This document shows positions 20,014-56,946 of a DNA stretch of 64,000 bases, piece after piece (within the stretch, counting starts at the first letter, position 1; each line of letters opens with the position of its first letter). Under the pieces are notes generated by a model. It saw only the letters and a list, made by a program, of their open reading frames with translations. It ran no database searches and was not told the origin of the DNA. This stretch comes from Candidatus Baltobacteraceae bacterium (GTDB lineage: Bacteria > Vulcanimicrobiota > Vulcanimicrobiia > Vulcanimicrobiales > Vulcanimicrobiaceae). The position numbers and the translations under genes are program-made. The stretch spans positions 1 to 64,000 of the forward strand of contig DATBTN010000057.1 of the NCBI GenBank assembly GCA_036559195.1, read 5' to 3'.

Positions 20014-20041
20014 GGCGCTCGAACAAGGCGCGTAAACGATC

Positions 20042-22171: not shown

Positions 22172-25100
22172 GCGCGCGAATCGGAAGCGCAATGAAGCGC
22201 TGCGGCGCCTTGCTGATGACCGTCTCGATCTTCTGCTCGGTGCAAGTCCGCGCGCGTTCGGACGACGCGCCGGCAGCGGCGCCGACTGCCGGCAAGATCA
22301 CCTACGCGGATCTCACGCACGAGACGTACACGGCGACCCATAACCTGAACGCGGCATTTGCTTTTCCGGCCGACGGCGCGATCTCGCCGACGATCGCGAC
22401 TCGCGTGGTGGTGGATACGACGCTGGGCGCGGGTATCGAGCTACGCGTGAACGACGAGATCGTGCCGCTCACGCGCGTTGGGCGCCACACCGCTTCGACC
22501 AAGACGGCTTCGGCCGAATTCGAATACTTCGGTGTCGTCCTGAAGCCGGGCCCGAATCGTATCGTCGCGACCGCGGTCGGTGCGAACGGATTGCGCGGCG
22601 CGGCGACCGCGGAAACGGTCTCGGGTCCCGGTATGCCAGCGACGCTCAAAGGCAGCCTGCAAGGCAAGCTCGTTGCCGACGGCAAGACCGTAACCATGCT
22701 CGACGTTCGCGCGCTCGATCGCTGGAACGATCCGGCGCTCGCGGGCTCGCCGGTAACGGTGAAGCTCGTGCACGGCGATGCGAGTTTCGCGGGTCGCGAA
22801 AACGCGCAGCCGTCGGCGAGCGCGAGCGCCGCACCGAGCGACCTTGCATCGCCGCCGGGCGGCGCGCGGGGCGCCGTTTTTGAAGCGCAGCTCGGCGTGG
22901 GCGGTTTGGTGGGCGTTCCCATCCTTCCCGGCCTGACGCCCGGTGACGTGACGCTGCAGATCTCCTCGGGCGATCTTACGACGACGCAGACGTTTTACAT
23001 GGCGCCGTACGTGCGCGCTCCATTCGTGAATGGGCTCTTGAGCGTTGGAACCGGCGTGGTGCCGATCGGAGTCGACGGCGACGGACGCGATGATGCCGGC
23101 GGCGCGCGCCGGCTGCGGGGCGCCCTTTTTGCCAGCGGCCGCGTCGGCAAGACCTCGCTGATGACGCTTGCCTACGAATCGCAAAACGCGCTCTCGCCGC
23201 TTTCATCGTTCGGCCCCTTCGTCGACGATCCCAACGAGCGCCCGTATCAAACCTTCGGCGACTCGTCCGTGCGAGCTTCGGGCTATCGCTCCAACGACCG
23301 GCTTTACGCGCGATTGGATTCCGGCCGCGATAGCGCGATGTGGGGACAGTTCGACGCGACGACCGGCGACGAGAACGCCGTCGGCGCATTCCGTCAGTTG
23401 CTCTCCGGCGCGAAGATCGAACTTGCGAGCAAAGACGCGCGCGCGCATCTCACGGCCTTCGGGGCGCGCAACGACGTTGGATACGTGTCGACGACCCTGG
23501 CGGTAACCGGGCTTTCGAATCTCGCGCGGCCGCTGCAGCCGGATATCGTGGTCGGCTCGGATTATCTCAGCCTCGCGTCGCTCGATCGCCGAACGGGCGC
23601 CGTCGTCGCGCAGTCGCCGCTGATTCGCAACGTCGACTATACGATCGACTACGCGACCGGCGTGTTGCGCTTTATCAACGTTCCGTTGCCGTTCGACGAG
23701 AACTTCAACCCGCAAGTCCTGGAGATCCACTATCAATACCGCGGCGTGGGCGTCAACTCGCGTACGACCGGCGCCGACGCGCGGTTTCAATTCGGCAAGC
23801 TCGGAACGACGCGGCTCAACCTCGGATACGTCAACGATGCGACCGGAGCCGGAAACTTTTCGATGCTCTCGCAAACGCTCTCGGGGAAGCTCTCGGGCGG
23901 CGGATGGACGCTCTCGCACGCAACGAGCGACGGAGCGTCGCCGGCGTTCGCGGGGCAAGCCGTCTCGAACGGCACCCACGGGGGCGCGCTCGCCTTCGGT
24001 ATGAACGACCGCGTCGGACGCGACCAAATCGATCTGCAGTATCAGGATACGGGCAACGGCTTTTCAGATCCGTTCGGCGGCATCTCGAACCCGGGATTCA
24101 CGAATTATCGAGCGGCATGGTCGCGCCGCACCTCGTCCTCCGACACGCTCGTATTCGAAGCCGACGGTCAGAAGAATCGCGGACTCGGCAACGACGACTC
24201 GCAGAACAACGTCTCGCTGCTGATGCGCAAGACGGTCGCGAAGTCGCTTTCACTCGTGCTGGGCCTGGCGGCGCACGCGCAGCACAACGCGCCGCTGATA
24301 GCGGCTGGGCAAGGCTCCAACACCCTTCAAACGAATACGCCGCAGAGTTCGACCGACGCTCACCTGCAACTCGGATTCGATTGGAAGGCGACGAAAAAGA
24401 TCGATCTTCGCATGCAGCACGATCAGGCACTCGGCGGAAACGACGCGCTCTCCACGCAGCCGGCGCAGACCACGGCCGAATTGAGCTATGCGTTCGACGG
24501 CAAGGGAAAGATGTTCGTTCGCGAGCTGCTCAGCGCGGCGCCTACGACGGTCTTCGCGCAAGCCGCCGGCACGCTTGGCGCCGCGAATCTCGGCACGCGC
24601 ACGACCCAGATCGGCTTCGAGCGAGCGCTGGGCCCGGCAACCACGATCGACAGCGAGTATTTGATGACCAACAGCGGCAATGCGACCGACATTTACTCCG
24701 CGCTCGGCGTGCAGCAGAAATTCTCGCTCGGCAAACGGCTGGGCGGAAATCTGCTCTTTCAGCGAGCCAACGCAACGGGCGCCGGCGCGGCGGGCTTCGC
24801 CGTGTACGGCGGCTCGATCGCCTATACGGATACCAAAGATTTTCGCGCGGCGCTTTCGTATCAATCGCGCACCGGCGTGGGCGGCGGCACGACGCTAAGC
24901 GGCGGTTTCACCGGACATATGGGGCCGAATCTCTCCGTGCTCGGCACGATCGCGCAAGCGATCGGCAACGGCAACCGCGCCGGCGACGACCGCATCACGC
25001 TCGCGTACCGGCCGGCGGGGAACGACCGGCTCGTTTCGCTCGTGGGCTATTCGCAGATCAGCGGAACATCCGCGCTGCTCGCGGACCGCACCGACGTGCT

Positions 25101-25473
25101 CTCGTTTGAAGAACTCTTTCGACCGTGGAGCGGGTTCGAGCTCGCCGGACGCATCGCAACCAAGCTCGACGGCGGCGGCTACTACGCGGCGCACACCGCA
25201 CTCGCCGGTATCCGCGTGCGTCAGAACGTCGGTACGCGTTTCGATCTGGGCGGAGAACTCCGGTCGCTCTCTGCCGCGAACATTCCCGGCGCGCGCGCCA
25301 CGGACTTTGCCGTGGAAGCCGGCTACGCGCTCGGCACTAGCACGCGCCTCGCCGCCGGCTACAACTTCTCGGGCAGCGTCGACCCGACGCTCACCGGGCA
25401 CCCGCAGCGCAAAGGTTTCTACCTAACGTTCACCACGATGGTCGATCGGGTTTTCGGTTGGGGCGCGCACTGA
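22168..25473 (+). CDS. Large outer-membrane beta-barrel candidate with N-terminal Ig-like domains
   Basis: This is a 1101-residue exported protein. It begins at the ATG overlapping the previous stop; an ATG at 22192 (MKRCGALLMTVS) would place the signal peptide at the very N terminus and is a good alternative. Residues 45-300 are Ig/invasin-like strands (NDEIVPLTRVGRHTAS, LDVRALDRWNDPALAGSPVT). Residue 470 onward has the signature NVDYTIDYATGVLRFINVPL, known from many large outer-membrane proteins that assemble or display surface structures. From about 530 to 1101 the sequence is a long series of amphipathic strands with many Gly/Asn turns and ends KGFYLTFTTMVDRVFGWGAH, as expected for a barrel. 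Its close coupling with the DUF11/SdrB protein suggests it exports or anchors that protein. Confidence 0.7.
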   Translation: MSARIGSAMKRCGALLMTVSIFCSVQVRARSDDAPAAAPTAGKITYADLTHETYTATHNLNAAFAFPADGAISPTIATRVVVDTTLGAGIELRVNDEIVPLTRVGRHTASTKTASAEFEYFGVVLKPGPNRIVATAVGANGLRGAATAETVSGPGMPATLKGSLQGKLVADGKTVTMLDVRALDRWNDPALAGSPVTVKLVHGDASFAGRENAQPSASASAAPSDLASPPGGARGAVFEAQLGVGGLVGVPILPGLTPGDVTLQISSGDLTTTQTFYMAPYVRAPFVNGLLSVGTGVVPIGVDGDGRDDAGGARRLRGALFASGRVGKTSLMTLAYESQNALSPLSSFGPFVDDPNERPYQTFGDSSVRASGYRSNDRLYARLDSGRDSAMWGQFDATTGDENAVGAFRQLLSGAKIELASKDARAHLTAFGARNDVGYVSTTLAVTGLSNLARPLQPDIVVGSDYLSLASLDRRTGAVVAQSPLIRNVDYTIDYATGVLRFINVPLPFDENFNPQVLEIHYQYRGVGVNSRTTGADARFQFGKLGTTRLNLGYVNDATGAGNFSMLSQTLSGKLSGGGWTLSHATSDGASPAFAGQAVSNGTHGGALAFGMNDRVGRDQIDLQYQDTGNGFSDPFGGISNPGFTNYRAAWSRRTSSSDTLVFEADGQKNRGLGNDDSQNNVSLLMRKTVAKSLSLVLGLAAHAQHNAPLIAAGQGSNTLQTNTPQSSTDAHLQLGFDWKATKKIDLRMQHDQALGGNDALSTQPAQTTAELSYAFDGKGKMFVRELLSAAPTTVFAQAAGTLGAANLGTRTTQIGFERALGPATTIDSEYLMTNSGNATDIYSALGVQQKFSLGKRLGGNLLFQRANATGAGAAGFAVYGGSIAYTDTKDFRAALSYQSRTGVGGGTTLSGGFTGHMGPNLSVLGTIAQAIGNGNRAGDDRITLAYRPAGNDRLVSLVGYSQISGTSALLADRTDVLSFEELFRPWSGFELAGRIATKLDGGGYYAAHTALAGIRVRQNVGTRFDLGGELRSLSAANIPGARATDFAVEAGYALGTSTRLAAGYNFSGSVDPTLTGHPQRKGFYLTFTTMVDRVFGWGAH

Positions 25474-28196
25474 TACGGCGCGCGCTCGCGTTGGCCGTTT
25501 GCGTAGCGCAGCTCGTTGCGACCCTGATCGTGGTGTTGCCGGTCTCCGCGCTGCCGGCGCTCGCGGCTCCCGCACTTTGCGCGCTGCCCGGCAACGACGA
25601 CCCGGCCGCGCCGGGAGGTGTGATAAACGATTACTTCCCGGGGACTGCCAACGTCGCGGCGGGCGCGACGTCGATTCAAGTCGGCGCGCAAGACCCGAAC
25701 GGGTTCGGCGCGACGGTCGGCGCCGGCGACTTATTGATCGTCATGCAGATGCAAGACGCATCGATCAATTCCGGCAACTCGGCATCGTATGGGAACGGGA
25801 CCGGCAGCGGTGCGACGTCGGTCGGCCGCAGCGGGCAGTACGAATACGTCGTCGCGACCGGTGCGATTAGCGGCGGCACGCTCCCGGTTAAGGGCGCGGG
25901 TGCCGGCGGCGGGACGCTCTATTCCTACGGGAGTTCGGCCGCGCCGAATCTCAAGTCGTTTCAAGTTATCCGCGTTCCACAATATTCATCGCTCCCGTCG
26001 GGCGCGTCGTATCAGCCGATTACGTGGAACGGTGCGGATGGCGGCGTGCTCGCGCTCGACGTGGTCAATAGTATCGGCAACGATACGTTGAGTGCGAACA
26101 GCGACGGATTTCGCGGCGGCGGCGTCGACGTGCAGAGCGGTTCCGCAGTCGATACGAACGCCGACTACGCCGACGCGTACGCGCAAGCCGCGCAGGGAAC
26201 CAAAGGCGAGGGAATCGCGGGTACGCCGAACGCCGTCTACGACGGCAATCTTTGGGCGGCCGCATATCCGGCGAGCCCCGATAGTTATCCCGGCGGCAGT
26301 AAGGCGCGTGGTGCGCCCGGCAACGCCGGCGGCGGCGCCGACGATAACCATCCCTCCGGCAACGATGAAAACAGCGGCGGCGGCGGTGGAGCGAACGGTG
26401 GAAACGGCGGCATGGGCGGCATGAATTGGAGCCCGAACGGCAATCCGTATTCCGGCTCGAACCTCACGGGCGTCAATCCCAACGTCGGCGGCCTCGGCGG
26501 TACGGCGGTGCCCTCCGCGGCGAATCAGATCGCGCTCGGCGGCGGCGGCGGATCGGGCGCCAACAACAACGGCACCGGCGGAACCGACGCAAATTCGGTG
26601 GTTATCGGCGGCAGCGGCGGTCCCGGCGGCGGTGCGATTCTCTTACGCGCCGGCGGCTCGACCGGCGGCGTGACGCTCAACGCCAATGGCGACAACGGCA
26701 TCGGCACCTTAAATGACGGCGCCGGCGGCGCGGGTGCCGGCGGCAGCATCGTCGTTACGTCGCCCAACGCATTGGCCGGCATCACGGCGAGCGCGTCGGG
26801 CGGCACGGGGGGCAGCGCCTGGCCCGCGCAGCCGGCGGGCGCTACCAACAATCACGGTCCGGGCGGCGGCGGCGGCGGCGGTGCGGTGCTCTTTTCGAGC
26901 GGCGTCGCGGCGAGCGTTACCGGAGGCTCGAACGGCACGACGACCACCGCGGCGATCCCGTATGGGTCGACGCCCGGCGGCGCCGGCACGACCGGCAGCA
27001 TAGCCGCGAGTCAGATTCCGGGCGCGTCGTCCGGTGCGGAATGCGGCTTGCCGAGTTCCGTTGGAAACCTCAGCAACGGGCCGCACGATTCCAATCCCGC
27101 GTCGCTTCCCAAGAGCGGCTCGGACGATACCGGTTCCTACGACGGCAACGTCTCGGTCTCGAACAACAACGACTTCACCGCGCGCAGCATTCCACTCAAC
27201 GGCGCGAATCCGGCGCCGACGAATACGTCGACGGTTCCGGGAACGTGGGCGGGAAATACCGTGACGCTTCCGTCGGCCGCGAACGTGAACGTTCCAAACG
27301 AACTCTACTACAACAACACGCGCGGCAAGGGCATACAGGTCACTCTTAACGCGACCGTTCCGGCGGGATTCGCCGTGCGTATCTGCGCGGACAACGCGGG
27401 CACGCCCGATTGTGCGCCCGCGACGGTTACGTGTTCGAAAAACGGTCCGGCGGGATGGTTTAGCATCGGCTCGAGCGGGGCGACCTCGCAGTCGGTCTAT
27501 TGCTTTAAGAAATCGACCGCGGCGGCCATAACCTATTGGGCCGAATACACGACGCCGACACAGCTAACGGCGTTCGCTCGGTACGACGCCCTTATCGCCG
27601 CTACCGACTCGCAATCCCCGCCCGCGACGAACGATACGCACGACGAACTCTATGCCGGATTCATTCCGCTAACCAAGACGATGACGGTGGTGCGCACCGC
27701 GTGCCCGGCCGGCGCGATCGTGCCGAGCTTCGGAGCGTGTCCCGGCGGCGTGGTGAAATACTCGATCGACTACCGGAACGTCATGGCCGGCGCGGGGCAA
27801 GGCACCGAGGCCGCACTCACGAGCGCGTTTTTGATAACCAGTCCCGGCTCTCTCGCGATTGCCGACGACGGTTCCTTAAGCACGCTGCCAAACGGCACGA
27901 TCAACAACTGGGCGAGCTTCAGCAAAGGATTGAAAGAAGCGCTCTCGGCGGGCCTGGGCAACAACACGACGTGCGGCACGACCGCCAACACTTGCGGCGA
28001 CACGACCGGCGGCACGATCTTCAGCTATTTCACCGGCATCCCCGCAGCGGGCGCAGGCTCGACAACGTTTCCCGCAGGATCGCCGACGACCAAATTCACC
28101 GCCCAGATCGGCGGAGCCGGCTTCGCGCTCTACCCCGCAAGTTTCGCCGGCCAAACCTCCGCCGGCTCCATAACCTTCGCCGTAGTCGTCAAGTAA
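25458..28196 (+). CDS. Glycine-rich exported protein with shared C-terminal module
   Basis: This is a 912-residue exported protein. The signal-like N terminus (LALAVCVAQLVATLIVVLPV) is followed by ALPALAAPALCALPGN. Residues about 110-510 are extraordinarily rich in Gly with Asn, Ser and Ala (runs such as GGGGGANGGNGGMGGMNW), predicted flexible or polyglycine-II-like. Residues about 550-730 form a beta domain (TLNATVPAGFAVRICADNAG). The last 170 residues are related to the C terminus of the 17692 gene: KGLKEALSAG, NTCGDTTGG and the final FAVVVK occur in the same order. The start is uncertain: TTG at 25458 overlaps the previous gene by 16 bp, and a GTG/ATG start with a clear ribosome site was not found. 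Confidence 0.7.
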   Translation: MGRALIRRALALAVCVAQLVATLIVVLPVSALPALAAPALCALPGNDDPAAPGGVINDYFPGTANVAAGATSIQVGAQDPNGFGATVGAGDLLIVMQMQDASINSGNSASYGNGTGSGATSVGRSGQYEYVVATGAISGGTLPVKGAGAGGGTLYSYGSSAAPNLKSFQVIRVPQYSSLPSGASYQPITWNGADGGVLALDVVNSIGNDTLSANSDGFRGGGVDVQSGSAVDTNADYADAYAQAAQGTKGEGIAGTPNAVYDGNLWAAAYPASPDSYPGGSKARGAPGNAGGGADDNHPSGNDENSGGGGGANGGNGGMGGMNWSPNGNPYSGSNLTGVNPNVGGLGGTAVPSAANQIALGGGGGSGANNNGTGGTDANSVVIGGSGGPGGGAILLRAGGSTGGVTLNANGDNGIGTLNDGAGGAGAGGSIVVTSPNALAGITASASGGTGGSAWPAQPAGATNNHGPGGGGGGGAVLFSSGVAASVTGGSNGTTTTAAIPYGSTPGGAGTTGSIAASQIPGASSGAECGLPSSVGNLSNGPHDSNPASLPKSGSDDTGSYDGNVSVSNNNDFTARSIPLNGANPAPTNTSTVPGTWAGNTVTLPSAANVNVPNELYYNNTRGKGIQVTLNATVPAGFAVRICADNAGTPDCAPATVTCSKNGPAGWFSIGSSGATSQSVYCFKKSTAAAITYWAEYTTPTQLTAFARYDALIAATDSQSPPATNDTHDELYAGFIPLTKTMTVVRTACPAGAIVPSFGACPGGVVKYSIDYRNVMAGAGQGTEAALTSAFLITSPGSLAIADDGSLSTLPNGTINNWASFSKGLKEALSAGLGNNTTCGTTANTCGDTTGGTIFSYFTGIPAAGAGSTTFPAGSPTTKFTAQIGGAGFALYPASFAGQTSAGSITFAVVVK

Positions 28197-45237: not shown

Positions 45238-46572
45238 TTAAATGGTCTGCAACAGCAGGCGGGTGAGGCTTCCGGCGCTGACTTGCAGCTGCGCGAGAAC
45301 GCTGGTCGCGACTTGGCTCACGACCTGGTCGCGCGTGAACTGCGTCGTGGCCTGGCCGACGTTGATATCGCGAATCGCGCTTTCGGCCGCGGTTTGGTTG
45401 ACGATCTGAATCGAGGCGTTGTTCGCATCTTCACTCAGCGCAACGCTCTGGGCTCCGACTCGCGCGCGCGCGGAGCTGATCTGTTCGATCGCCGCCTGCG
45501 TTCGCGCCTCGGCGGCGTCGGCCGCATAGACGTTGCTGCCGGCCGTGCCGGCGGGATTGTTGAACGTGTCGACCAGGCCGGGCGGAAGAACCGAGATGCC
45601 CGCGACGTTTAGCGCCTGGGCCGAGACCGTCGGCAGCGCGATCGAAACGACGTTGCCTTCGGATCCGCCGGAGTTCACGGCGAGCGCGTGACCCGTGCCC
45701 GCGTTCGAGCCGAGCGTGGTGAGAAACGTGATCGCGGTACCGACGTCGGCCTGCGTGATGTTCGCAAGATCGAAGCCCAGAACGTTTTTGGTTCCCGACG
45801 GCGAGGTGAGGAACAGCCCCGGAAGCGGACCTCCATCGGTCGGGACCGCCGTTATCGCAACGTTTTGAGGCGCGGCGCCGAAGGCGGGATCGGTGCTATA
45901 GACGACGGTTTGCACGTAGACGCCGGGAACTCCAAGCGGTCCCGTGATCGGATCGACCGGATTCGTGGAATAGCTCAAGATACGAAATTCAACGAGCGAC
46001 GCCACGCCGCCGGCGGTCGAGACGCTGGCGTTGCTCACGAGCGCACCGGGATTCCCTAATCCGTCGGCGTTGACGACGGTCGAGCTGGGGGTCGCGCCGT
46101 CGGCACCGGGTTCTGAGGTAATCTTCACGGTCGAACTCTGACCGGGCGGGCTCGTGTCGAGCGACCCGTCGAAGAGGTGAACGCCGTTAAAATTCGTCTC
46201 GCCGGAGATCTTGTTGACCTCGCGCAATAGCGTGTCGATCTCGGTTTGAATGCTGTTGAGCGAGCCGATCGAGACGAGATCGGATCGCGATTGGACGATA
46301 AGTCCGTGGATGCGCTGGAGGATACTCTGCACGGACGCAAGCGTCGAATCGGCGACTTGCAGCAGATTATTCGCGCTCTGGACGTTTGCAACGCCCTGCT
46401 GCAGCCCGGAGACTTTCGTCTGGATGGTCTCGGCGATCGCGAGACCGCTGGGATCGTCCGCAGCAGACGAAATACGCAGGCCGCTGGCCAGCGCATTCAC
46501 ATCCTTGCGTTCGTTCGATTGTGCACGAGAGAGGTTCCCTAGAACGAATCCCGTGCTTCCCAGCACATCCAT
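45238..46572 (-). CDS. Flagellin
   Basis: This is a 444-residue flagellar filament protein. The conserved N-terminal D0/D1 region occupies about 1-140 (LASGLRISSAADDPSGLAIA, ETNFNGVHLFDG) and the C-terminal D1/D0 region about 345-444 (ARARVGAQSVALSEDANNAS, VSQVATSVLAQLQVS). The variable middle (about 140-345) would be exposed on the filament. A GGAGG site is 15 bases upstream of the ATG, farther than usual. No other flagellar genes are in the window. The divergent gene begins 140 bases away, so the two loci share an intergenic promoter region. Confidence 0.9.
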   Translation of the reverse strand: MDVLGSTGFVLGNLSRAQSNERKDVNALASGLRISSAADDPSGLAIAETIQTKVSGLQQGVANVQSANNLLQVADSTLASVQSILQRIHGLIVQSRSDLVSIGSLNSIQTEIDTLLREVNKISGETNFNGVHLFDGSLDTSPPGQSSTVKITSEPGADGATPSSTVVNADGLGNPGALVSNASVSTAGGVASLVEFRILSYSTNPVDPITGPLGVPGVYVQTVVYSTDPAFGAAPQNVAITAVPTDGGPLPGLFLTSPSGTKNVLGFDLANITQADVGTAITFLTTLGSNAGTGHALAVNSGGSEGNVVSIALPTVSAQALNVAGISVLPPGLVDTFNNPAGTAGSNVYAADAAEARTQAAIEQISSARARVGAQSVALSEDANNASIQIVNQTAAESAIRDINVGQATTQFTRDQVVSQVATSVLAQLQVSAGSLTRLLLQTI

Positions 46573-46711
46573 GAGTAAGAGACGTTTCCTCCGTGAAACT
46601 CTTCCCTGATAGGTATCCTATCGGCGCGGCCACCGGAAAACTTATCCGTTCTCGCTCCGATTCCGCCTCAAGCCCGGCGCTCCCAAGTCCGAAGAAAGTA
46701 AAGAATCACTC

Positions 46712-49700
46712 ATGGGAGACCGGAATTATACGCGCCGGCTGGGGCTTACGCTCCGGTTCGCCGGCATTGCCGTCATGGCGAGCTCGGTGCTCGCGGGGGT
46801 CGTCTGGAACGCTCGACCGCTGACGGCCCTGGCCGCGCCATTGGCCGCGGTGCGCACGCTCGTCGCGCAAGTTCTTCCGCAAGTCGTCCCGTCGCCGGTT
46901 CCCGGTTTCGACGCGACGCCCGAGCCATCGCCGGAGCCGAGCGCGCGGGCCACCCTCACGCCGGGCGTGGGAGCGGCTACGGTGACGCCCAATCCGGCTT
47001 CTACGCACACGCCGGCGCCGAGCGCCCGGCGCGGCGGACCGTTGAGGTTCACGCTGACCGGCGGACTCTCGCTCGGCGAACGCGTGCAGCAGAGCGTTCG
47101 CGGCGACGCTGCCAGCGGAACGCTGGCCACCTACAATTATAGGGCACCGACCGACAATGCCGGTCTGCTCGCCCGCATCGATCGCCGCACGGCGACCACC
47201 ACGCTCACCTTCAGCGTGCCGGCCGGCATCACCACCACGCTCTCGAACCTCGGCGAGTTACAAGCCGGCTACTACACGCCCAAGTACGCGCTCCAGTACG
47301 GCGCCCAGCCGCTCACGGTGCTCGGCGGAGTTCCGCTGGGAACGACCCTGCGGGGACTCGCTTTCGTCTTGCCTCTGCGCGGCGGGGACGTGACCTTTTT
47401 CAACGGACCGGCGTTCGGCGAAGACTTTGCCGTCACTCACGTGAGCGGCGTGCGGGCGCGGCGGGTCGTACGCGACACGCTCTTCGAGTTCGGAATGGAT
47501 CGAGCGCGTTCGACCCGCGGCGGCGAGATCGACGCGCTGCTCTTTGGCCTTGCGAACAACCGCGGTCTGCTCAACCAAAGTTTTGAGGGCGCGCTGGAAC
47601 GCCAGCCGGGGATCGAGGCCGGAGCGCTGACGATCAACGGCGTCACGATCGCGCCCAAGGCGTACTCGTATCAGTATCGCGCCGATTACGGCAACGACAA
47701 GCTCTATCTTACAACGACGTTGCGCCGCATCGCCGACGGCTTCGTCACGTTTGGTTCGGGGGCCGTCCAGGGCGACGACCTGGCCTCTTTCGGTCTGCGA
47801 ACCAACGGCGGGAATGGCGGCATCGGCGTGGATGAGTCCTTCGAGCGAAACGGCACGGGGGATCTGCTCAACGTGTCGCGCCGGGGGACGCTCTCGATCG
47901 CACGGTCGTTTCAACGCAGCAACGTAACCTCGCTACTGACCTTCAGCGATCAGCGCACGCAGTCGCTCGCTGGAGTCGCGTGGCTCGGCGGAGCGAGCCT
48001 GCAAGTCGGGCTCAACGTGCATGACGTGAACGCCATATTCGGCGCACAGGAGCAACGCTCGACCGCGAGTTTTTCGGGTACCAGCGCGCTCTCGACGTTC
48101 AGCGGCGAGCTGCAACGCAGTTTCGGCAGCTTGTTCTCGTCGCTTGGGTATCAAGTGACGCGGCAAATCGCCGAAGGCCAATCCTCCACGATCTCTACCG
48201 GGAACGTTTCGCTTACCCGCAACTTCGGTCCGACGGCACTGAGCTTCACGACGACGTTCGCGCGTACGCTCTCGTTTCAAAGCGACGCGGTGCAAACGAC
48301 GCCGCTGCTTACGATCTCGCGGCGCCTCTCGCCGGCGGCGACGCTGGGTTTGAGTTTCGGCGAAACGCTCACCCGCGACGCGCTCAACCCCTCGGCGAAC
48401 GGACGCTCCCGAATATTCGGCATTCAAATCAACGCGCCGTTCGCGATCGGAAACGGCAGCGTGCAGGGCCGCGTCGACCCGCGACTGCCCGCGACGATTA
48501 GCGGCAGCGTCCTCACCGACACGAGCAATCAAAACAACTACAGCTACAACTCGGCAATCAACAACGGCGTCGGCAACGTCGTCGTCGTACTCGATAACAA
48601 CGACGTGCAGCGAACCGACCTCGCCGGGCACTTTCAATTCAATTTCGTGACCCCCGGCGTTCACCAAGTGCGCCTCGAGTCGGCGTCGCTGCCGCGCGGC
48701 ATCACCGCCGATCAGCCGTTCGCATCGATCACGGTCTTGGGCGGCCAACAGGGCCAGGTCTACTTCCGGCTGGGCAACTACGGTGCGGTGCAGGGCCACG
48801 TCTTCGGGCGCGATTCGGGAGGCCGGCTCTACCCGTTGGCGGATGTTGCCTTGCGCGTGGATAGCGCCGGCATTGCCACGACGGGATCGCTGGGCGCGTA
48901 CGGCTTCGGACGCTTGAGTCCCGGCACGCACGTCGTCTCGATCGATCCGAGTTCGATTCCCGCGAGCGTCTCGTTCGCGGCAAGCGCGCTAAAGCAGAGC
49001 GTGACGATTCGCAACGGTGAGGTGAGCGCGCTCGATTTTACCGCCGATCCGCTGGGGTCGATCGGTGGCAAGCTCGTCTACGACGCGTCGCTCGGCCCGG
49101 CGCTGGCAGGCCCGGTGCTCAACGCCTACGTGGTGGCAGAGCCGGGCGACCACGCCGGCATCACCGACGAGCAAGGGGAGTTTTTGCTGGACGACTTGCC
49201 CGCTGGAAGCTACACCGTCGACGTCGATCCCGAGACGCTGCCGGAGGAGACCGGGAGCCTCACGCAGCCGATCGCGGTAACGCTCGGCGGCCAAGAACAC
49301 GTCAACGGACTCGTTTTTACGATCGGACATAAGGCGAAGCCCGTCGTCTTCACGCTGATGGGCAGCGAGGCACCGTCAACGATTACGCTGACGCAAACGA
49401 CGCTTCCGCCGGCGGGAGCGACGGCGGTCACCGTAAAGACGACCGCGCAAGCCACCGCGGTCACGGTCAACGCGTTCGGGAAAAATTTTCCGCTCGCGTA
49501 CGACAAACATCGCAGTGATTGGGTCGGGACGATCGTGGTTCCGGTCAATGCCAACGGCGGCACCACGCAAGCGGTCGCCGAAATCTCGGCAAAGAGTCCG
49601 GCGCAGGCCTCGGCCTCGCTTACCGTCGACCCGCGAATCTCGCTCGTCACGTTTTCGATGACACCTTCGAACCCGAGTCGCGGCCAATACGTGCGCGTGC

Positions 49701-49882
49701 GCGCGCGATTTTTGGCCGACGTCGCGCCCGGCACGCAGATTCGCTGGCAGGATGGCCAGGTCACGAAGCTCGGGAGACCGCTGACCGGTCGCGTCTACGA
49801 ATTCACTGTAAAGATATCTGAACAGCCTCTGCGCGGTCTCTTGCTAACGCGAGGGGGCGACCTGCCGATACTTTTGAGGTAA
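46712..49882 (+). CDS. Large outer-membrane beta-barrel candidate with SdrB-like domains
   Basis: This is a 1056-residue exported protein. After an unusually long N-terminal signal/anchor (about 1-45) comes a Pro/Thr spacer (PSPVPGFDATPEPSPEPSAR). Residues about 105-590 are a strand-rich, Gly/Asn-turn segment that looks like a large barrel. Three SdrB/carboxypeptidase-regulatory-like domains follow at about 595-675 (ISGSVLTDTSNQNN, LAGHFQFNFVTPGVHQV), 685-765 (GAVQGHVFGRDSGGRLYPLA) and 770-850 (GITDEQGEFLLDDLPAGSYT). A C-terminal Ig-like region ends the protein. The composition resembles an usher or fibre anchor. It is the first gene of a six-gene run to 56946. No sequence family is claimed. 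Confidence 0.7.
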   Translation: MGDRNYTRRLGLTLRFAGIAVMASSVLAGVVWNARPLTALAAPLAAVRTLVAQVLPQVVPSPVPGFDATPEPSPEPSARATLTPGVGAATVTPNPASTHTPAPSARRGGPLRFTLTGGLSLGERVQQSVRGDAASGTLATYNYRAPTDNAGLLARIDRRTATTTLTFSVPAGITTTLSNLGELQAGYYTPKYALQYGAQPLTVLGGVPLGTTLRGLAFVLPLRGGDVTFFNGPAFGEDFAVTHVSGVRARRVVRDTLFEFGMDRARSTRGGEIDALLFGLANNRGLLNQSFEGALERQPGIEAGALTINGVTIAPKAYSYQYRADYGNDKLYLTTTLRRIADGFVTFGSGAVQGDDLASFGLRTNGGNGGIGVDESFERNGTGDLLNVSRRGTLSIARSFQRSNVTSLLTFSDQRTQSLAGVAWLGGASLQVGLNVHDVNAIFGAQEQRSTASFSGTSALSTFSGELQRSFGSLFSSLGYQVTRQIAEGQSSTISTGNVSLTRNFGPTALSFTTTFARTLSFQSDAVQTTPLLTISRRLSPAATLGLSFGETLTRDALNPSANGRSRIFGIQINAPFAIGNGSVQGRVDPRLPATISGSVLTDTSNQNNYSYNSAINNGVGNVVVVLDNNDVQRTDLAGHFQFNFVTPGVHQVRLESASLPRGITADQPFASITVLGGQQGQVYFRLGNYGAVQGHVFGRDSGGRLYPLADVALRVDSAGIATTGSLGAYGFGRLSPGTHVVSIDPSSIPASVSFAASALKQSVTIRNGEVSALDFTADPLGSIGGKLVYDASLGPALAGPVLNAYVVAEPGDHAGITDEQGEFLLDDLPAGSYTVDVDPETLPEETGSLTQPIAVTLGGQEHVNGLVFTIGHKAKPVVFTLMGSEAPSTITLTQTTLPPAGATAVTVKTTAQATAVTVNAFGKNFPLAYDKHRSDWVGTIVVPVNANGGTTQAVAEISAKSPAQASASLTVDPRISLVTFSMTPSNPSRGQYVRVRARFLADVAPGTQIRWQDGQVTKLGRPLTGRVYEFTVKISEQPLRGLLLTRGGDLPILLR

Positions 49883-49940
49883 CGCTTTTCGCTGAGAGCC
49901 ACGGATGGCTTCATCATTGCGCATTGTGAAAGGACTTAAC

Positions 49941-50621
49941 GTGAAAAAGCTCATGACTCTTGCGGCGCTCGGGGCGCTGTTAGCTTCGGCCTTACCAGCC
50001 GGAGCCGCTGCCGTTACCAAGACCGGTACGGTCACGGTGAAGTGGAACACCTCGGTCACGGCGAGCCTCGCCCTGGCAACCAATTACGACGCGGCCGGCG
50101 CGCAGCAGCTTACCGCACCCGCGATTCTCGCGAACGCCAACCCGGGTGCCGGTTCGTGCACCGCGGCAGGCACCGGCTCAGAAGTTGCGGCAACCGTCAA
50201 CTTCGGCCCCGTTTCGCCGGACTTCACCAACCCGACCGGCTGTCTGTACAAGAACGCGGTGAACGCGCTCGTCCAAACGAACTCGCCGAACTGGACCCTC
50301 TCCGAGGCGCTGAGCGCCGCGGTGACCGGCGCCACGCTGTGTGCGTTTGCTAACGGCAACGGCGGTTCGTTCCCCGCAACCATCAGCGGTGCTGCCGGTC
50401 CGACGCAGACGGCCCGCGCGGCTTCTCCCGTCGGTGCGGCTTGCGCTGCCGGCGCCGCCACGCTCCCGAGTGCGGCTCCTCCGGGCCTGCAGGTCGCGAG
50501 TTCGACGACTGCCTATCCGGCCGGTGCGAACGTCGGCGAAGATCTCGAATTGATCCTCAGCCCGACCTCGCCGAGCGGCGCTCAATCCTACACGGTCACC
50601 TACACGCTTGTTGCAAACTAA
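49941..50621 (+). CDS. Exported fibre-subunit-like protein A
   Basis: This is a 226-residue exported protein. GTG at 49941 has AAAGGAC five bases upstream and begins the signal peptide VKKLMTLAALGALLASALPA; an in-frame ATG at 49905 (12 residues longer) is the alternative. The mature part has TKTGTVTVKWNTSVTASLAL, then a disulfide-compatible loop (GSCTAAGTG, CLYKNAV) and the core VNFGPV, NALVQTNSPNWTLSEAL. The C terminus is SPSGAQSYTVTYTLVAN. The same NFGP/QTNS core and YT-x-x end occur in the proteins at 51498, 52148 and 52858. This is a probable building block of a surface fibre, located between the anchor and the chaperone gene. Confidence 0.75.
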   Translation: MKKLMTLAALGALLASALPAGAAAVTKTGTVTVKWNTSVTASLALATNYDAAGAQQLTAPAILANANPGAGSCTAAGTGSEVAATVNFGPVSPDFTNPTGCLYKNAVNALVQTNSPNWTLSEALSAAVTGATLCAFANGNGGSFPATISGAAGPTQTARAASPVGAACAAGAATLPSAAPPGLQVASSTTAYPAGANVGEDLELILSPTSPSGAQSYTVTYTLVAN

Positions 50622-50687
50622 GCTCGCAAAGAGAGAGATAGGCTCGCTGCGGGGCGCATCGCCGTCCTGCAGCGAACCGCTCACCGC

Positions 50688-51476
50688 ATGAAACACTTCC
50701 GCGCACTCGTTTTCTTGACGCTGATCGGCGCTCTTGCGCTGATGCCGAACCCCGTCCATTCCGACGGTCTCGGCCTCGACGTCTCGCCGGCTAAACTGGA
50801 ACTCGCCATGACGCCGGGCTCGTCGTACAACGTCCCCGTCACCGTGCACAACTCCACTTCGAATTCCACGCACGTGCAGGCGACGATGATCGACTTCGCT
50901 TTGGCCCAAAACGGCGATTACGAATTCGAGAAAACGGGTACGCGCGGCGACTCATTGATGCGGTGGGCATCGATCAACCCTCGCGAGTTCGATCTGCCGG
51001 CGGGCACGACGCAACAGGTCCGCCTGTCGCTCGCAGTGCCGGCCGGAAACCTGAGCGGCGAATACGCGGGAATCGTATTTTTTCAAACGCGTCCGGTGCG
51101 CCGCGCGGGTGCGGTGGCATTTTCGGCACGCGTTGCAACGAAGATTTACATGACGATTCCCGGCACCGTGAAAATCGACGGCGCCATCGCGAAAATGGCG
51201 GCTTCACCCGCTCCGGCGGGCGAGCTGTACCGAGTGCTCTTTAAGAATTTGGGAAACGCTCACGTCTATCTGCGCGGTCAGCTCGAAGTGCAGAAGAACG
51301 GACAGACCGTCGATCGCGTGGCTTTCCCATCGCAAGAGCTGGTAGAACGAGGCGGAGATCGCCTCATCGAAGTCAACGGAAAACGGTTGCCGCCGGGCAA
51401 ATATCAAGCGATCGCGACGATCGACTACGGCGGCAAGACGATGACCGGTGGCGAGATCAACTTCGGCACGCAATAG
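50688..51476 (+). CDS. Periplasmic fimbrial-type chaperone (PapD/DUF916-like)
   Basis: This is a 262-residue exported protein with a signal peptide to about residue 24 (NPVHS then DGLGLDVSP). It is a two-domain Ig-like protein of the pilus-chaperone/DUF916 kind. Domain 1 has LDVSPAKLELAMTPGSSYNV and FDLPAGTTQQVRLSLAVPAG, followed by GEYAGIVFFQTRPV. Domain 2 has LYRVLFKNLGNAHVYLRGQL and KRLPPGKYQAIATIDYGGKT. No transmembrane anchor follows, unlike Gram-positive DUF916 proteins. It sits between two of the subunit-like genes, so its clients are most likely the neighbouring YT-x-x-ending proteins. Confidence 0.75.
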   Translation: MKHFRALVFLTLIGALALMPNPVHSDGLGLDVSPAKLELAMTPGSSYNVPVTVHNSTSNSTHVQATMIDFALAQNGDYEFEKTGTRGDSLMRWASINPREFDLPAGTTQQVRLSLAVPAGNLSGEYAGIVFFQTRPVRRAGAVAFSARVATKIYMTIPGTVKIDGAIAKMAASPAPAGELYRVLFKNLGNAHVYLRGQLEVQKNGQTVDRVAFPSQELVERGGDRLIEVNGKRLPPGKYQAIATIDYGGKTMTGGEINFGTQ

Positions 51477-51497
51477 TTCACAAAGGAAGGTGAGCGA

Positions 51498-52151
51498 GTG
51501 CGAACTAGGATTGCCGCCTGGGCGTTTGCGGCGGCTGCGATCGTTTCGACGATCGTGCCGGCGGGCGCCGCGACTGGCAACATCAACGTCAAGTGGTACG
51601 CGCAGGCGCTCGTTAAGATCGCCCTGACGCCGAACTATGCCGCGGGCTTCGGCTCGGTCAAGGCCGTGTTCGGCGCGCAGCCGTCGCCGGTTTACGGCCC
51701 GGACGCGAGTCTGAATGCCGGCGCCGTCGATTTCGGTCCGGTGATCGCCGGCACGAACTACTTGTATAAGTACGCATCCCACCTCAACGTCGTCACCAAC
51801 GACAACAGCGGGTTCAACGTGTACGCCGAGGGCACCGCGGACTTTTATAATTCGAGCGACGCTTCGACGCAAATCCTCAACCAAACGCTCTACTATCTTC
51901 CGTCGGTGGACGGCACTACGCAGAGCGACACCAACACCGGGTACTCACCCGCCTATCCGTTTTTTCGTACGGCCGGTGCGGTAACGCCCGGCACTCCGCC
52001 CAGCATTACCTACGCGTCCTACCCGGCGCCGGCCTACGCGTCGACGAACGCGACCGGGGATTACTACTTCGACTATCAGCTGAAGGTGCCGCCGGGAGCG
52101 ACCAGCGGTAACTACTTCGTTTGGATCGTGTACACCGTGGTGCCTCGATGA
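51498..52151 (+). CDS. Exported fibre-subunit-like protein B
   Basis: This is a 217-residue exported protein that begins with GTG at 51498 behind AAGGAAGGTGAG. The signal peptide runs to about residue 24 (VPAGA then ATG). The mature chain has GNINVKWYAQALVKIALTPN (matching the GTVTVKWN start of the 49941 protein), AVDFGPVIAGTNYLYKYASH, LNVVTNDNSGFNVYAEGT and the end YYFDYQLKVPPGATSGNYFV then WIVYTVVPR. The VDFGP, T-N and YT elements identify it as a paralogue of the 49941 product. It overlaps the next gene as ATGA. Confidence 0.75.
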   Translation: MRTRIAAWAFAAAAIVSTIVPAGAATGNINVKWYAQALVKIALTPNYAAGFGSVKAVFGAQPSPVYGPDASLNAGAVDFGPVIAGTNYLYKYASHLNVVTNDNSGFNVYAEGTADFYNSSDASTQILNQTLYYLPSVDGTTQSDTNTGYSPAYPFFRTAGAVTPGTPPSITYASYPAPAYASTNATGDYYFDYQLKVPPGATSGNYFVWIVYTVVPR

Positions 52152-52858
52152 AGATCGCACGCTCGTTACGTCTTGCGACGGCCGCCTTCGTACTCGCGGC
52201 GATTGGGTTGGCGCTCGGCACGCATGGCGAGGCGGGGTTCATCCAATCGCAGCGCTCGCAGCGCTCGGTATACATCCTGGTTAACGTGACGCCGGCCCCG
52301 ATCGTCTACGCACCATCATCCTCGTCGGGCGATCGCGGCATCTCCGTTCGGATGGCGCTGCGTCAACGGGGCGGCGGAAGCGAAGCGCAGCTCGCGCGCG
52401 ACGGCGACGGGGTACTCGTCGCTGCGGTGCCGCCGCCGGGCGCGCAGAACGGCGTTAAAGTCGAGGCCGAAGTGACGCCGGATCCAAACGCCACGCTTCT
52501 CTATGCGGACCAGCCCGCCGTGCTCTTTAATGCGGTGGCCGGCACGACCGTAACCCAGCCTTGCGCGTATCACGTTACGGTGCACACCACGATCACGCGT
52601 TGGACGCTGCGGGACGGCCTCTCGAACGATTTCGCATCCGGCACGTTTCCGGGCAGTTCGCTCTCGAACAATTCGTACGACACGCTCAATACGCCCCAAC
52701 CGGCCGCGACGCCGTTTGTGGTCTATCCGGCGCAGTTCGTTCCGATGGCGTCCGCCGGCGGGATCCACACGTATTGCGTCGATCTCACTCTTTCCATTCC
52801 CGCAAGCGTCCCCGGAGGAGCGTATAGCACGAATGCCGTGTATACGCTGTACTATTGA
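52148..52858 (+). CDS. Exported fibre-subunit-like protein C
   Basis: This is a 236-residue exported protein; ATG at 52148 overlaps the previous stop (ATGA). The signal-like part ends at about residue 27 (GLALGTHGEAG). The core LLYADQPAVLFNAVAGTTVT, then CAYHVTVHTTITRWTLRDGL corresponds to the V(D/N)FGP...T-N...W segment of the other subunits. The C-terminal LSIPASVPGGAYSTNAVYTL then YY corresponds to their YT-x-x end. A pair of cysteines (CAYHV, TYCVDL) could form a disulfide. It overlaps the next gene by one base. Confidence 0.72.
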   Translation: MKIARSLRLATAAFVLAAIGLALGTHGEAGFIQSQRSQRSVYILVNVTPAPIVYAPSSSSGDRGISVRMALRQRGGGSEAQLARDGDGVLVAAVPPPGAQNGVKVEAEVTPDPNATLLYADQPAVLFNAVAGTTVTQPCAYHVTVHTTITRWTLRDGLSNDFASGTFPGSSLSNNSYDTLNTPQPAATPFVVYPAQFVPMASAGGIHTYCVDLTLSIPASVPGGAYSTNAVYTLYY

Positions 52859-55800
52859 TGCGCGGTAAGCGGCGCGTGCTGGGGATCGTCGCCGCCGCCG
52901 TGCTGGCGTTTACGACGACGCTGACGGCGCTCGCCCAAGTGCATCCCATCGACGACCCGCAGGGACCGCGTCCGATTCACTTCCCGGTTCCCCACCCGGT
53001 CGTCCGGCCGACGTTTGCGCCTGCTCCGGGAAGCGCCCCCGCGACGTCGCAGCCGCTCGCGCTCCCAACGCCCGTCGGCGCGGTGGATGCCATGATGAAC
53101 TCGCAATTAGGCGTTCCCGAGTCGCTGGCACGTCTCGCAGTGCTGCCTCGGCGCAACGCGTCGAACACGGCCACCACCGTGCGCGCCCGGATGCCGATGT
53201 CGATCCGCCGCCCTGAATCGGCGCAGTTCGCAACGCTCCAGTATTCGGAAGTGAGCAACTGCGGCTCGTCGGTGGGAGAAATTTTTAACGTCGGCTGCAC
53301 GATTGCGGTGCGCGGCGTCGAGGCGTTCGTGCACGACGGCGACACGCTTCAGAACTACTATATCGACGCGAACAACAACCTAGCGCAGACGCTCGGCGGC
53401 CAGTACTCCGTTAATTTCTTCGGGAACGGTAACGTGTACGGACCGCAGTCGAACGTGACCCTTGCGAATCCGGGCACGTACGTTCTGGGCGAGTACGACG
53501 TGACGCAGGGCGTTTGGATTGCGGTCGTCTACCTGACCGTCGGATCGGCAAACGGCGTGATCACGTATGCGGACAACACGTTGCGCGTGCCGTCGACGAA
53601 TTTCATCATCCCCGCCGCCGGAACCACGAACGCGTATATCAACGTACTGGGTCTGCCCGCGACCGACAACTACGTCGTGTACATCGAGCAAACGTCGACC
53701 AATCCGCAGTGCGTCTACTACGCGCCGGCCAGGACGGGCGTTCCCGGAAATAACATGGGGTTGTGCGACCCGAATGCCTCGCCGGGGCAAACGGCGCCGG
53801 GCGGGACGCTTACGATTGCGTGGCCGATCACGAGCGGGTATCTCGCAGCCGCGTACTCGATCGTGGTTTGGGATAAAACGCAGCAGCGCCGTATCGCGCA
53901 GACCGAAGTTGCGCTGACGACGTCGGGCGGATCGGGGCTCGTGAACCTCACTCCGGTAACCGGCTCCAATCCGTCGCCCGGTCCCAATCCGCTCGCAACT
54001 CCCGGCGTCCGGTTCGCCTTCGACAATACCTCCGATCAGTCGGTCGGCGGCGTGAACATCAACATGTCGGGCCTCAATTCGAGCGATTTCTACTGCTTCT
54101 CGATCAGCGATCCGAACGGACGCGTTTACGCCGACCAACCCGCCAACCAGTACGACGTCACGTGCGGGAACCCGAACGGCGGTGCGCTTTCGCTTACGGA
54201 CACGTTCCTAAATAATTACCAGCCGCTCAATTACGCGCCGAATACCTATCTGGTAAACGCCTACGATACGAACTCCGGCTACGTGCAGGTCTCGGAGGCC
54301 TTCCAAGTTCTCGGCTACAACGCGCTCACGCAGTTCACGAACGCGGCGGGGACGGCCGTCACGGGGACCGCGCTCGTCTTACCGAACGGCGCGAGTACGC
54401 CCGCCGGTCTGCAATTCACCAACGATGGGGATACCTATTACGGCGTCGGAAACGGCGACCCGCTGGCCGGCGTCTACTTCGACACCGGCAGAAAAGGCAT
54501 AACGATTGCGCTTCCAGGGGGCGTCACGAGCGAAACGGTTGTCGATTCGGCCGGCCAAAGCTGGAACGTCACGCTTACGAATCTGGGGGCCGGCAATACC
54601 GCAGGCTCGAGACTCGCGCTTTACCCCATCACGGCAAGCCAAAGCCTGCCGGTAAACGCATCCATTCAACTCTCGAATCTTACCTTCCAAAACGTCGGCG
54701 GCGCGGGGCAGTGTACCGGCGGATGTACGGGCGTGACCGCAATTTTACCGGCCGACGGATTGGCGTGGTCGCAAAAGAATAACGCCGCATCGAGCAATCC
54801 GGTCTTTTTTACCAATAGCGGCGCGAACACGGACTCGGGAACCGCCAGCGTCACGCGTTTAGGCGTTACGAACTCGGGCGTGGGATACGTCGGCGGCGGG
54901 GCCGCCGGTGAAGAACAGCATGGGTATTACCCGCGCCAGATCGCCGGTTGGAGCGGCGCGCTCTATTCCACCAACGAGCCGTTCCCGCAGTCGCGATCGT
55001 TAAACGACGTCTATGCGGTCACGATTTCCGACACGTCCAGCGCCGGTGCCGGGAAGATGACCGGCATCGCGGTGGTCTTTCCGCCGGGGTATCAAACCGG
55101 TGGCTACAACGTGCAGGTAAGCGTCGATCCCAACAGCCCGACCAAGTGGCAGGTGGATGCCGCGAACTGCCCGGCCGGACTGCCGCCGAACGGATCGATC
55201 TGTCTCAAGCCGCTCAATCCCAACACCGGCATACCGCCGGTCAACGGCACGCAGACGATTTATCTCGACGTTGCGAACGATCCGCCGTCTTCGTTCGCCT
55301 ACACGGATTTCACGGTTCAAGCCTACAAGCCGACGCCGGTTTCGCTCACGCCCAGCGGGCTGCAAAACGTCTTCGTCGGCGTGGCGAGCCCGGTCGACTC
55401 AACCGCCGTGGCGTCGTACTCTCTAGACGGCGGATTGATCGCGCCCGTGTTCACGCCGCAATCCGAAGGCACGGGAACCAACAACGTCGTCAACGTTGCC
55501 GTGCAGAATACGACGATCGCGCAAGATCCGTATCCCGACTACGTCGACGCGGTCGTGATCGAGTTGCCCAACGGCGTCGTGAATCCGGCGACGTTCGCCG
55601 GAATCTCGCCGGGAACGTGGCAGTATTTAGGCAGCGGGCCCGGTTTCGGCGGCGCGACGACCGACTATTGGTTCGGCGTTTGCGCGTCGCAGTTCGTTAC
55701 CGCCGACGGTCCTTCGCAGAATCCCCCGCCGGTCAAGCCGGCCCTGCCCGCCTGCAGCCAGGTGGTCGAACAGAACGCACTCGCGCCGGGAACGAGCTTT

Positions 55801-56946
55801 GCATTCAACGCGCCGTTCAACGTCGGCAATACGCCCGGCACGATCGCCGCGACGATGTACGCGCACGGCGCAAACGGGAACGGCTGGTCAAAGGGACACG
55901 CCTTCACCTTGAACGTGACCTCGATTGCCGCGACCTCGGGCTTCGTGCAGGTCGGCAGCTATGGCGCGCCTTCGGCCGTGCCGAGCAACACCACGCCGCA
56001 AATCGGTGCCGACAGCAACAGCACGTTCGGCAACACGTTCGTCTACGAAATCGATAACACCAGCAGCGCCGGCAACAACATTACCTCTGCCGTCGTGACC
56101 ATTCCGTATTTGGATACGTCGGGCGCCGACGCACGTGATAACGGCGGCACGGGGCAAGGCTGGCAGATCACGTCGGCGCCCACGCTCTCCGGCAGCGGCT
56201 GGACGCACTGCGCCGCAACGTATGCGAACCCGACCGGCGGCTCCGCAAATGGAAATATCACGCTGGTGAACTCCGGAGGGGCCTGCACGATCTCGCCGGG
56301 CGGCAAGTTGGATGTTACCTTCGCCATGAAGGCGCCATACGAAGTCAATCAAACCGCCAAATTTCCCGCAGTTGTCAACGGCGCGATCAACGCCTCTGAG
56401 AATTGGTTTAGCGACACCGACTTGCAGGTCGTTCTCTCCGCGCAACTAGGCATCTCCGTATGGCCGAGCGCCGACCCTGGCCCTCTGGGCGGCGGCGGCA
56501 CGGCCTCACCGAGCTGCACCAGCGCGTGCACGTACATTCAGGCGACGAATTTGCTGGATTTCGGCAACATCGCGAACGGAACGTCCAACGCCGGAACCGA
56601 CGTCGTACAAGTGAGCGTTTTTACGAACGCCGCCAACCCGATCGGCTGGCAGCTGTACGTCTCGACGAACAACAATCCCGCCAACGCGCCGGGGCCACCT
56701 TCGAACGAGTTGCTTCACATGGTCGATCTCTCGCACAGCTCGGCCGGCAGCGGAATGAATTTCGACTCGACCGTCTTCACGGTCATTCCCACCGCCGGCA
56801 ACGGTACCCAACTCGTCGACACAGGTGCGGGCGTGGCACCGCGGCGCCAGCCTTACGACGTCGTCAACAACCTTAAAGTCCAAATCTCCGGCGGGACGAC
56901 CGCGCCGAATACCTCGATTCTCACCTACACGTTCATCTCGAACTAG
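52858..56946 (+). CDS. Very large exported protein with subunit-type C terminus
   Basis: This is a 1362-residue exported protein that starts at the ATG overlapping the previous stop by one base (a TTG one codon upstream is also open). The signal is residues 1-26 (LAFTTTLTALA). It is followed by a Pro-rich segment (about 35-60) and about a dozen Ser/Thr/Asn/Gly-rich Ig- or beta-helix-like segments with few cysteines. The last 170 residues repeat the features of the small subunits: LLDFGNIANGTSNAG, VVQVSVFTNAANPIGWQLYV and the end VQISGGTTAPNTSILTYTFI then SN. It could be the tip or long stalk protein of the structure whose chaperone and small subunits are encoded upstream. It overlaps the convergent gene end by 14 bp. 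Confidence 0.72.
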   Translation: MRGKRRVLGIVAAAVLAFTTTLTALAQVHPIDDPQGPRPIHFPVPHPVVRPTFAPAPGSAPATSQPLALPTPVGAVDAMMNSQLGVPESLARLAVLPRRNASNTATTVRARMPMSIRRPESAQFATLQYSEVSNCGSSVGEIFNVGCTIAVRGVEAFVHDGDTLQNYYIDANNNLAQTLGGQYSVNFFGNGNVYGPQSNVTLANPGTYVLGEYDVTQGVWIAVVYLTVGSANGVITYADNTLRVPSTNFIIPAAGTTNAYINVLGLPATDNYVVYIEQTSTNPQCVYYAPARTGVPGNNMGLCDPNASPGQTAPGGTLTIAWPITSGYLAAAYSIVVWDKTQQRRIAQTEVALTTSGGSGLVNLTPVTGSNPSPGPNPLATPGVRFAFDNTSDQSVGGVNINMSGLNSSDFYCFSISDPNGRVYADQPANQYDVTCGNPNGGALSLTDTFLNNYQPLNYAPNTYLVNAYDTNSGYVQVSEAFQVLGYNALTQFTNAAGTAVTGTALVLPNGASTPAGLQFTNDGDTYYGVGNGDPLAGVYFDTGRKGITIALPGGVTSETVVDSAGQSWNVTLTNLGAGNTAGSRLALYPITASQSLPVNASIQLSNLTFQNVGGAGQCTGGCTGVTAILPADGLAWSQKNNAASSNPVFFTNSGANTDSGTASVTRLGVTNSGVGYVGGGAAGEEQHGYYPRQIAGWSGALYSTNEPFPQSRSLNDVYAVTISDTSSAGAGKMTGIAVVFPPGYQTGGYNVQVSVDPNSPTKWQVDAANCPAGLPPNGSICLKPLNPNTGIPPVNGTQTIYLDVANDPPSSFAYTDFTVQAYKPTPVSLTPSGLQNVFVGVASPVDSTAVASYSLDGGLIAPVFTPQSEGTGTNNVVNVAVQNTTIAQDPYPDYVDAVVIELPNGVVNPATFAGISPGTWQYLGSGPGFGGATTDYWFGVCASQFVTADGPSQNPPPVKPALPACSQVVEQNALAPGTSFAFNAPFNVGNTPGTIAATMYAHGANGNGWSKGHAFTLNVTSIAATSGFVQVGSYGAPSAVPSNTTPQIGADSNSTFGNTFVYEIDNTSSAGNNITSAVVTIPYLDTSGADARDNGGTGQGWQITSAPTLSGSGWTHCAATYANPTGGSANGNITLVNSGGACTISPGGKLDVTFAMKAPYEVNQTAKFPAVVNGAINASENWFSDTDLQVVLSAQLGISVWPSADPGPLGGGGTASPSCTSACTYIQATNLLDFGNIANGTSNAGTDVVQVSVFTNAANPIGWQLYVSTNNNPANAPGPPSNELLHMVDLSHSSAGSGMNFDSTVFTVIPTAGNGTQLVDTGAGVAPRRQPYDVVNNLKVQISGGTTAPNTSILTYTFISN

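Follow-up and report, generated by a model that had tools for sequence, protein, structure and literature searches.

A Conserved Six-Gene Cluster of Vulcanimicrobiota Combines a WxLIP-Type Chaperone with a Usher-Like Barrel and Probably Builds a Surface Fibre

Gene Content of the Locus

The window analysed here is a stretch of 64,000 nucleotides of contig DATBTN010000057.1 from a Candidatus Baltobacteraceae bacterium with a genome of 2.48 Mb. Six genes, designated A to F, occupy positions 46712-56946 of its + strand and encode a large outer-membrane-type protein, a putative periplasmic chaperone with two immunoglobulin-like (Ig) domains and four further exported proteins. Related genomes carry the titles Candidatus Eremiobacterota or WPS-2; the current NCBI name of the phylum is Vulcanimicrobiota. 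The genes and the two main parts of A are as follows:

46712..49882, + strand: gene A, 1056 amino acids, exported, outer-membrane-type, usher-like
47042..48433, + strand: residues 111-574 of A, predicted 24-stranded beta-barrel without a plug insertion (AlphaFold2 model)
48479..49879, + strand: residues 590-1056 of A, about five beta-sandwich domains of the SdrD_B/CarboxypepD_reg-like kind (Pfam, model, profile match)
49905..50621, + strand: gene B, exported small subunit (reading frame; homology to D by profile comparison)
50688..51476, + strand: gene C, putative WxLIP-type periplasmic chaperone with two Ig domains, 262 amino acids (PF06030)
51498..52151, + strand: gene D, exported pilin-like subunit of 217 amino acids with a predicted incomplete Ig fold (AlphaFold2, VIA-align)
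52148..52858, + strand: gene E, putative exported subunit (start codon, overlap, alignment)
52858..56946, + strand: gene F, exported protein of 1362 amino acids with a subunit-like C-terminal domain, candidate tip protein

All six reading frames were confirmed on the + strand. The genes are co-directional, partly overlapping and operon-like, with gaps of 22 (A/B), 66 (B/C) and 21 (C/D) bases followed by overlaps at D/E and E/F, which bears out the initial annotation of six nearly gapless genes on one strand. As judged from the sequence, B probably starts at GTG 49941, which lies behind AAAGGA and close to the start of most homologues. The start of E is most likely ATG 52148, in an ATGA overlap with the stop of D, and that of F is likely ATG 52858, in a TGATG overlap with E; from this codon the last protein has the 1362 residues ascribed to it earlier. 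None of B, D, E and F has a significant match to a Pfam family.

The WxLIP-Type Chaperone

The product of gene C matches PF06030 (formerly DUF916, now WxLIP_PGBD) at 2.1e-7, above the cut-off, and the family is matched by all 25 aligned proteins, namely C and 24 relatives. A deeper profile of C that includes distant relatives aligns with the solved EfmWxLIP1 at an E-value of 3e-10. The alignment spans positions 33-259 of C and residues 22-262 of EfmWxLIP1, covering both the PGBD and the HBD, and this match over both domains supports the view of C as a two-domain Ig-like chaperone. Its earlier placement in the "PapD/DUF916 kind" survives in its DUF916 (WxLIP) half. The PapD half does not, since no PapD family of Pfam was found for C or among the 25 families listed for C and its relatives; membership of C in the PapD family is thereby ruled out by Pfam. 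In hhalign, C and the PapD-type chaperones of the same order give 97-98% over both Ig domains, a similarity that could be at the level of the fold only.

WxLIP proteins are predicted to insert a strand into their WxL partner, and those of Gram-positive bacteria carry a C-terminal membrane helix (PMC10599100). By analogy, the strand insertion would be donor-strand-like. No hydrophobic helix is present at the C-terminal end of C (...YGGKTMTGGEINFGTQ) and the same holds for its relatives, so that C should be soluble in the periplasm.

The Barrel Protein and Its Tail

The only modules that Pfam recognises in A are of the SdrD_B (1.8e-7) and CarboxypepD_reg (8e-9) kind; the SdrB-like domains reported earlier in this large outer-membrane-type protein are thus real. 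An AlphaFold2 model of A was built from 28 sequences, with a mean predicted local distance difference test score (pLDDT) of 76 and a predicted template modelling score (pTM) of 0.50. In this model DSSP assigns 24 strands to residues 111-574, counting a short strand at 216-222, in agreement with the 24-strand usher-type barrel that had been suspected. The pLDDT of the barrel by block is mostly 80-92 from about residue 190 and lower in the first strands. Behind the barrel the model places about five beta-sandwich domains. When the model was compared with the PDB by Foldseek, the top ten matches were full-length FimD/PapC ushers with E-values from 3e-16 to 2e-12, and other outer-membrane barrels followed at about 1e-6 or worse.

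At the level of sequence families, PF00577 (usher) matches neither A nor any of the 28 aligned A proteins, and a search of the PDB with the A profile retrieved no solved usher; the same search leads from the order's classical ushers to FimD at 1e-43. These two tests rule out A as a plain member of the usher family and confirm the absence of a usher signature noted in the initial annotation, although ushers remain the best Foldseek match of A. Having no usher signature in Pfam, no usher N-terminal domain and no plug, A lies outside the known usher family. It is usher-like in architecture yet outside the usher sequence family.

These data also bear on the view that the locus encodes an ordinary chaperone-usher pilus that has merely diverged. 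The rank of ushers in the Foldseek list of A speaks for it, as do two profile similarities, one between C and PapD chaperones and one between the A tail and usher C-terminal domains. However, PF00577 is matched by no relative, the model of A contains neither the N-terminal domain nor the plug, C matches WxLIP and not PapD in both Pfam and the PDB, and a real archaic locus is present in the same genome. A merely diverged pilus is disfavoured and appears highly improbable.

The Exported Subunits

The AlphaFold2 model of D (pLDDT 72) predicts, with moderate confidence, the incomplete Ig fold expected for such a subunit: the chain ends at the last strand, and a conserved N-terminal segment lies free outside the sheet. 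In VIA-align the best neighbours of D are the TLP-1a and TLP-1b filaments (PDB 9ikj and 9ikk) with Z of 8.6 and 8.3, the match extending over 150 residues, almost the whole chain, at 4.3 A and 13% identity; no sequence-profile match between D and these filaments was found. They are followed by N-domains of GH123 (Z about 7.2-7.5) and many chaperone-usher pilins (about 5.4-6.6), among them FimG, CsuA/B, FimA and PapA (about 6-6.6). Since a Z below 8 can reflect a chance arrangement, the pilin reading of D rests on the concordance of these results and not on one match.

B is homologous to D (99% in profile comparison), and the last ~150 residues of F align to D as well (81-87%). E appears from its alignment to consist of an alternating N-terminal strand, a Pro-rich linker and a pilin-like end. 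F has nine invariant Cys, and outside its subunit-like end nothing convincing was found in Pfam or the PDB. The WxL domain (PF13731) has no match in the subunits of the locus, in this genome or in its family. B, D, E and F were also considered as direct WxL-domain proteins; this was rejected, there being no PF13731 and just a short C-terminal motif by hhalign.

Conservation of the Cluster and Related Loci

Relatives of A were found in 46 of the 103 genomes of the order, and 41 of them were counted as real members; the remaining matches were set aside as weak and partial. The content A-F recurs in about 40 Vulcanimicrobiota genomes at protein identities of ~25-70%, and the co-occurrence of the six genes is far beyond chance. 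The gene order, whose conservation the initial annotation had named as a check, recurs in two main forms across these genomes. In the nearer genera a flagellin on the opposite strand is followed by A B C D E F, and in the more distant ones the order is A B C F D E; a single A F B C D E arrangement was also seen among the fetched neighbourhoods. In these neighbourhoods the genes lie on one strand and in one cluster. Pairwise distances of seven proteins are correlated with r of 0.82-0.98, which indicates that the cluster has been passed on as a whole. With C as the query, 31 loci were recovered from 84,980 species genomes, and all those with a named group belong to Eremiobacterota/WPS-2. A second, rearranged copy is present in genome G097 (locus L146, 6884-15999, contig 11). 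This copy has two WxLIP genes and a gene for a 1033-residue protein whose C-terminal end is a B-type subunit domain.

At six loci in the same phylum (L134, L135, L137, L141, L144 and L145), more distant WxLIP-like proteins are encoded next to small exported proteins and to different barrel-type proteins whose tails are of the CarboxypepD_reg type. Three of these loci, L135, L137 and L141, form a separate lineage in which the small exported proteins are accompanied by one or two WxLIP-like proteins and by an outer-membrane-type protein of 712-722 residues that has an N-terminal domain. At two further loci, L189 6809-13908 (G135, contig 71) and L192 3259-9793 (G111, contig 180), a WxLIP chaperone and an outer-membrane-type protein with a tail are encoded beside small Pfam WxL proteins, the WxL (PF13731) match of L192 being below the cut-off. 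Hence, this diderm phylum seems to possess WxL clusters with an added barrel protein. The tails of the WxLIP-associated outer-membrane proteins are similar to each other in profile comparison, and no such mutual similarity was found among their barrels. These loci make A one branch of a wider group in diderms that combines WxLIP proteins with tailed barrels.

Such loci lend some weight to a complex that does not polymerise. In that case A would serve as both anchor and exporter in the outer membrane, and the WxLIP-like protein would hold B, D, E and F together as a short coat or an adhesin complex, the arrangement proposed for Gram-positive WxL clusters. C is a WxLIP, and WxL clusters typically consist of one WxLIP with two WxL proteins, a small one and a large one (PMC10599100), a set comparable to C with D/B and F. 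Furthermore, relatives within the phylum do have Pfam WxL subunits together with a WxLIP and a barrel-type protein. On the other hand, C has no WxLIP membrane helix, the subunits of the locus have no PF13731, and the structures nearest to D are filament subunits. We regard a complex of this type as unlikely.

The Adjacent Flagellin

Upstream of A, two features lie on the opposite strand:

45238..46572, - strand: flagellin, divergent from A (Flagellin_N 8e-28, Flagellin_C 3e-9)
46618..46644, - strand: sigma28-like flagellin promoter, TAAGTTTT-N11-GCCGATAG (13/16 matches)

The promoter-like site has the consensus spacing, none of 200 shuffles was as good, and a similar site occurs at most other loci. 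A sigma28-like promoter for A-F was sought as well and rejected, as no site on the A side rises above shuffles in the window. Flagellin stands beside A at every locus where the contig reaches upstream, except in the rearranged second copy. It is encoded in 41/41 genomes with A vs. 9/62 without (Fisher 2.7e-20); counted by genus, the figures are 16/16 with the locus vs. 4/23 without (1.5e-7).

This linkage could mean that the products are a fibre or coat co-expressed with the flagellum, either as a decoration of it or as its functional partner. Both the constant adjacency of the divergent flagellin and the confinement of the locus to flagellin-bearing genomes would fit. Nevertheless, the sigma28-like site serves the flagellin and has no counterpart on the A side, part of the co-occurrence is explained by shared ancestry, and the nine flagellin-bearing genomes in the second group do without the locus. 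A flagellum-linked appendage therefore seems very unlikely. Vulcanimicrobium alpinus, a cultured member of the phylum, lacks both flagella and a flagellin gene, and the pili reported for it are type IV pili (PMC9758169); it is thus not an obvious test organism.

Elsewhere in the window, three long open frames of 773, 1128 and 912 residues at 17692-28193 have no Pfam match at 0.001.

Proposed Mechanism and Its Assessment

Gene content, conserved linkage, protein families and predicted folds, taken together, make it probable that the locus is a chaperone-usher-like fibre system with a WxLIP-type chaperone and a reduced usher-like barrel, one that presumably secretes a fibre. The strand insertion predicted for WxLIP proteins, the resemblance of the A tail to usher C-terminal domains and the loci elsewhere in the phylum that again combine a WxLIP-like protein, a tailed barrel-type protein and small exported proteins also speak for it. 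According to this scheme, B, D, E and the C-terminal domain of F would reach the periplasm via Sec with an Ig-like groove left open because the last strand is missing. C would lend a strand and so cap the groove. On the periplasmic side, the beta-sandwich tail of A would receive the chaperone-subunit complexes and may thereby stand in for both the N-terminal and the C-terminal docking domains of a usher. The N-terminal strand of the following subunit would then take the place of the strand of C, and the subunits would exit through the A barrel, with F, which combines a large domain and a subunit-like one, leading as the tip adhesin. Recruitment would thus have moved to the enlarged tail, and gating would fall to some other element.

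Several results weigh against the fibre system. As to A, the model has no folded domain inside the barrel that could be a plug, the largest insert between strands being ~40 residues (175-215). No usher N-terminal chaperone-binding domain is seen, residues 27-107 being Pro-rich and disordered with pLDDT <50. The model was computed from 28 sequences and has a pTM of 0.50. In VIA-align PapC reaches a Z of 15-16 against A (359-370 residues aligned, 4.4-5.4 A), a value that many barrels share and that of the Mtr complex exceeds with 19, so that ushers are not singled out. Similarly, an hhalign comparison of full-length A with 17 classical ushers from this order gives 99% (E 3e-17), yet this similarity, once dissected, lies mostly in the tail: residues 612-770 match usher C-terminal domains at 97%, and the barrel taken by itself has no firm counterpart among usher barrels (20%, E 1e-3). 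The tail domains are common modules and may account for a large part of the match to ushers. As to the other proteins, the invariant Lys152 of C does not align with a conserved basic residue of PapD-type chaperones. GH123 N-domains score at least as well as pilins for D, and the Foldseek list for D, which agrees with VIA-align, contains no E-value below ~1e-3. The profile match of E to D is weak and confined to a C-terminal motif, leaving E weakly linked to the other subunits.

A broader proposal is that WxLIP-type chaperones and plug-less tailed barrels make up a separate kind of fibre secretion, widespread in Vulcanimicrobiota, with a barrel that arose independently of the usher family and a link between Gram-positive WxL complexes and chaperone-usher pili. 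We put this forward tentatively, as possible but rather doubtful. A limited search of papers and family libraries found no described system of such composition, nor any paper that treats fibres of Eremiobacterota or DUF916 in connection with outer membranes.

If the proposed fibre system is real, the plan of chaperone-usher systems can do without the usher parts to which recruitment (N-terminal domain) and gating (plug) are ascribed, and a chaperone family so far known from Gram-positive WxL clusters serves in fibre building. It would also tie WxL surface complexes to pili in a way that can be tested, and a phylum with few cultured members would gain a conserved surface machine.

Comparison with Known Systems

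The TLP-1a/TLP-1b filaments are the best structural neighbour of D, yet share only 13% identity with it. With the WxL/WxLIP clusters of Firmicutes (PMC10599100) the locus has in common a two-domain WxLIP encoded together with small and large exported partners. It differs from them in the added outer-membrane barrel, in a chaperone without a membrane helix and in subunits without PF13731.

Among chaperone-usher systems, FimD has a 24-strand barrel, a plug, an N-terminal domain and two C-terminal domains, and the subunits polymerise by donor-strand exchange (PMC11459180). As in the chaperone-usher pili (FimC/FimD and the archaic Csu), a single operon encodes a two-Ig periplasmic chaperone, a protein with a predicted 24-strand barrel and beta-sandwich C-terminal domains, pilin-like subunits that miss the last strand, and a large two-part candidate tip protein, F. 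Unlike in these pili, the chaperone is of the WxLIP family, the subunits match no pilin family, and A has no PF00577, N-terminal domain or plug, while its tail comprises about five domains where ushers have two.

Classical ushers of the order occur independently of A-F (p = 0.6). In the same genome, an ordinary archaic chaperone-usher locus (L068 8443-13059; G000, contig 66) encodes a PapD-type chaperone, a usher (Pfam Usher 5e-13) and small subunits that are SCPU-like by eye. Of the two loci only L068 matches Pfam Usher; both combine a two-Ig chaperone with a usher or usher-like protein and small subunits.

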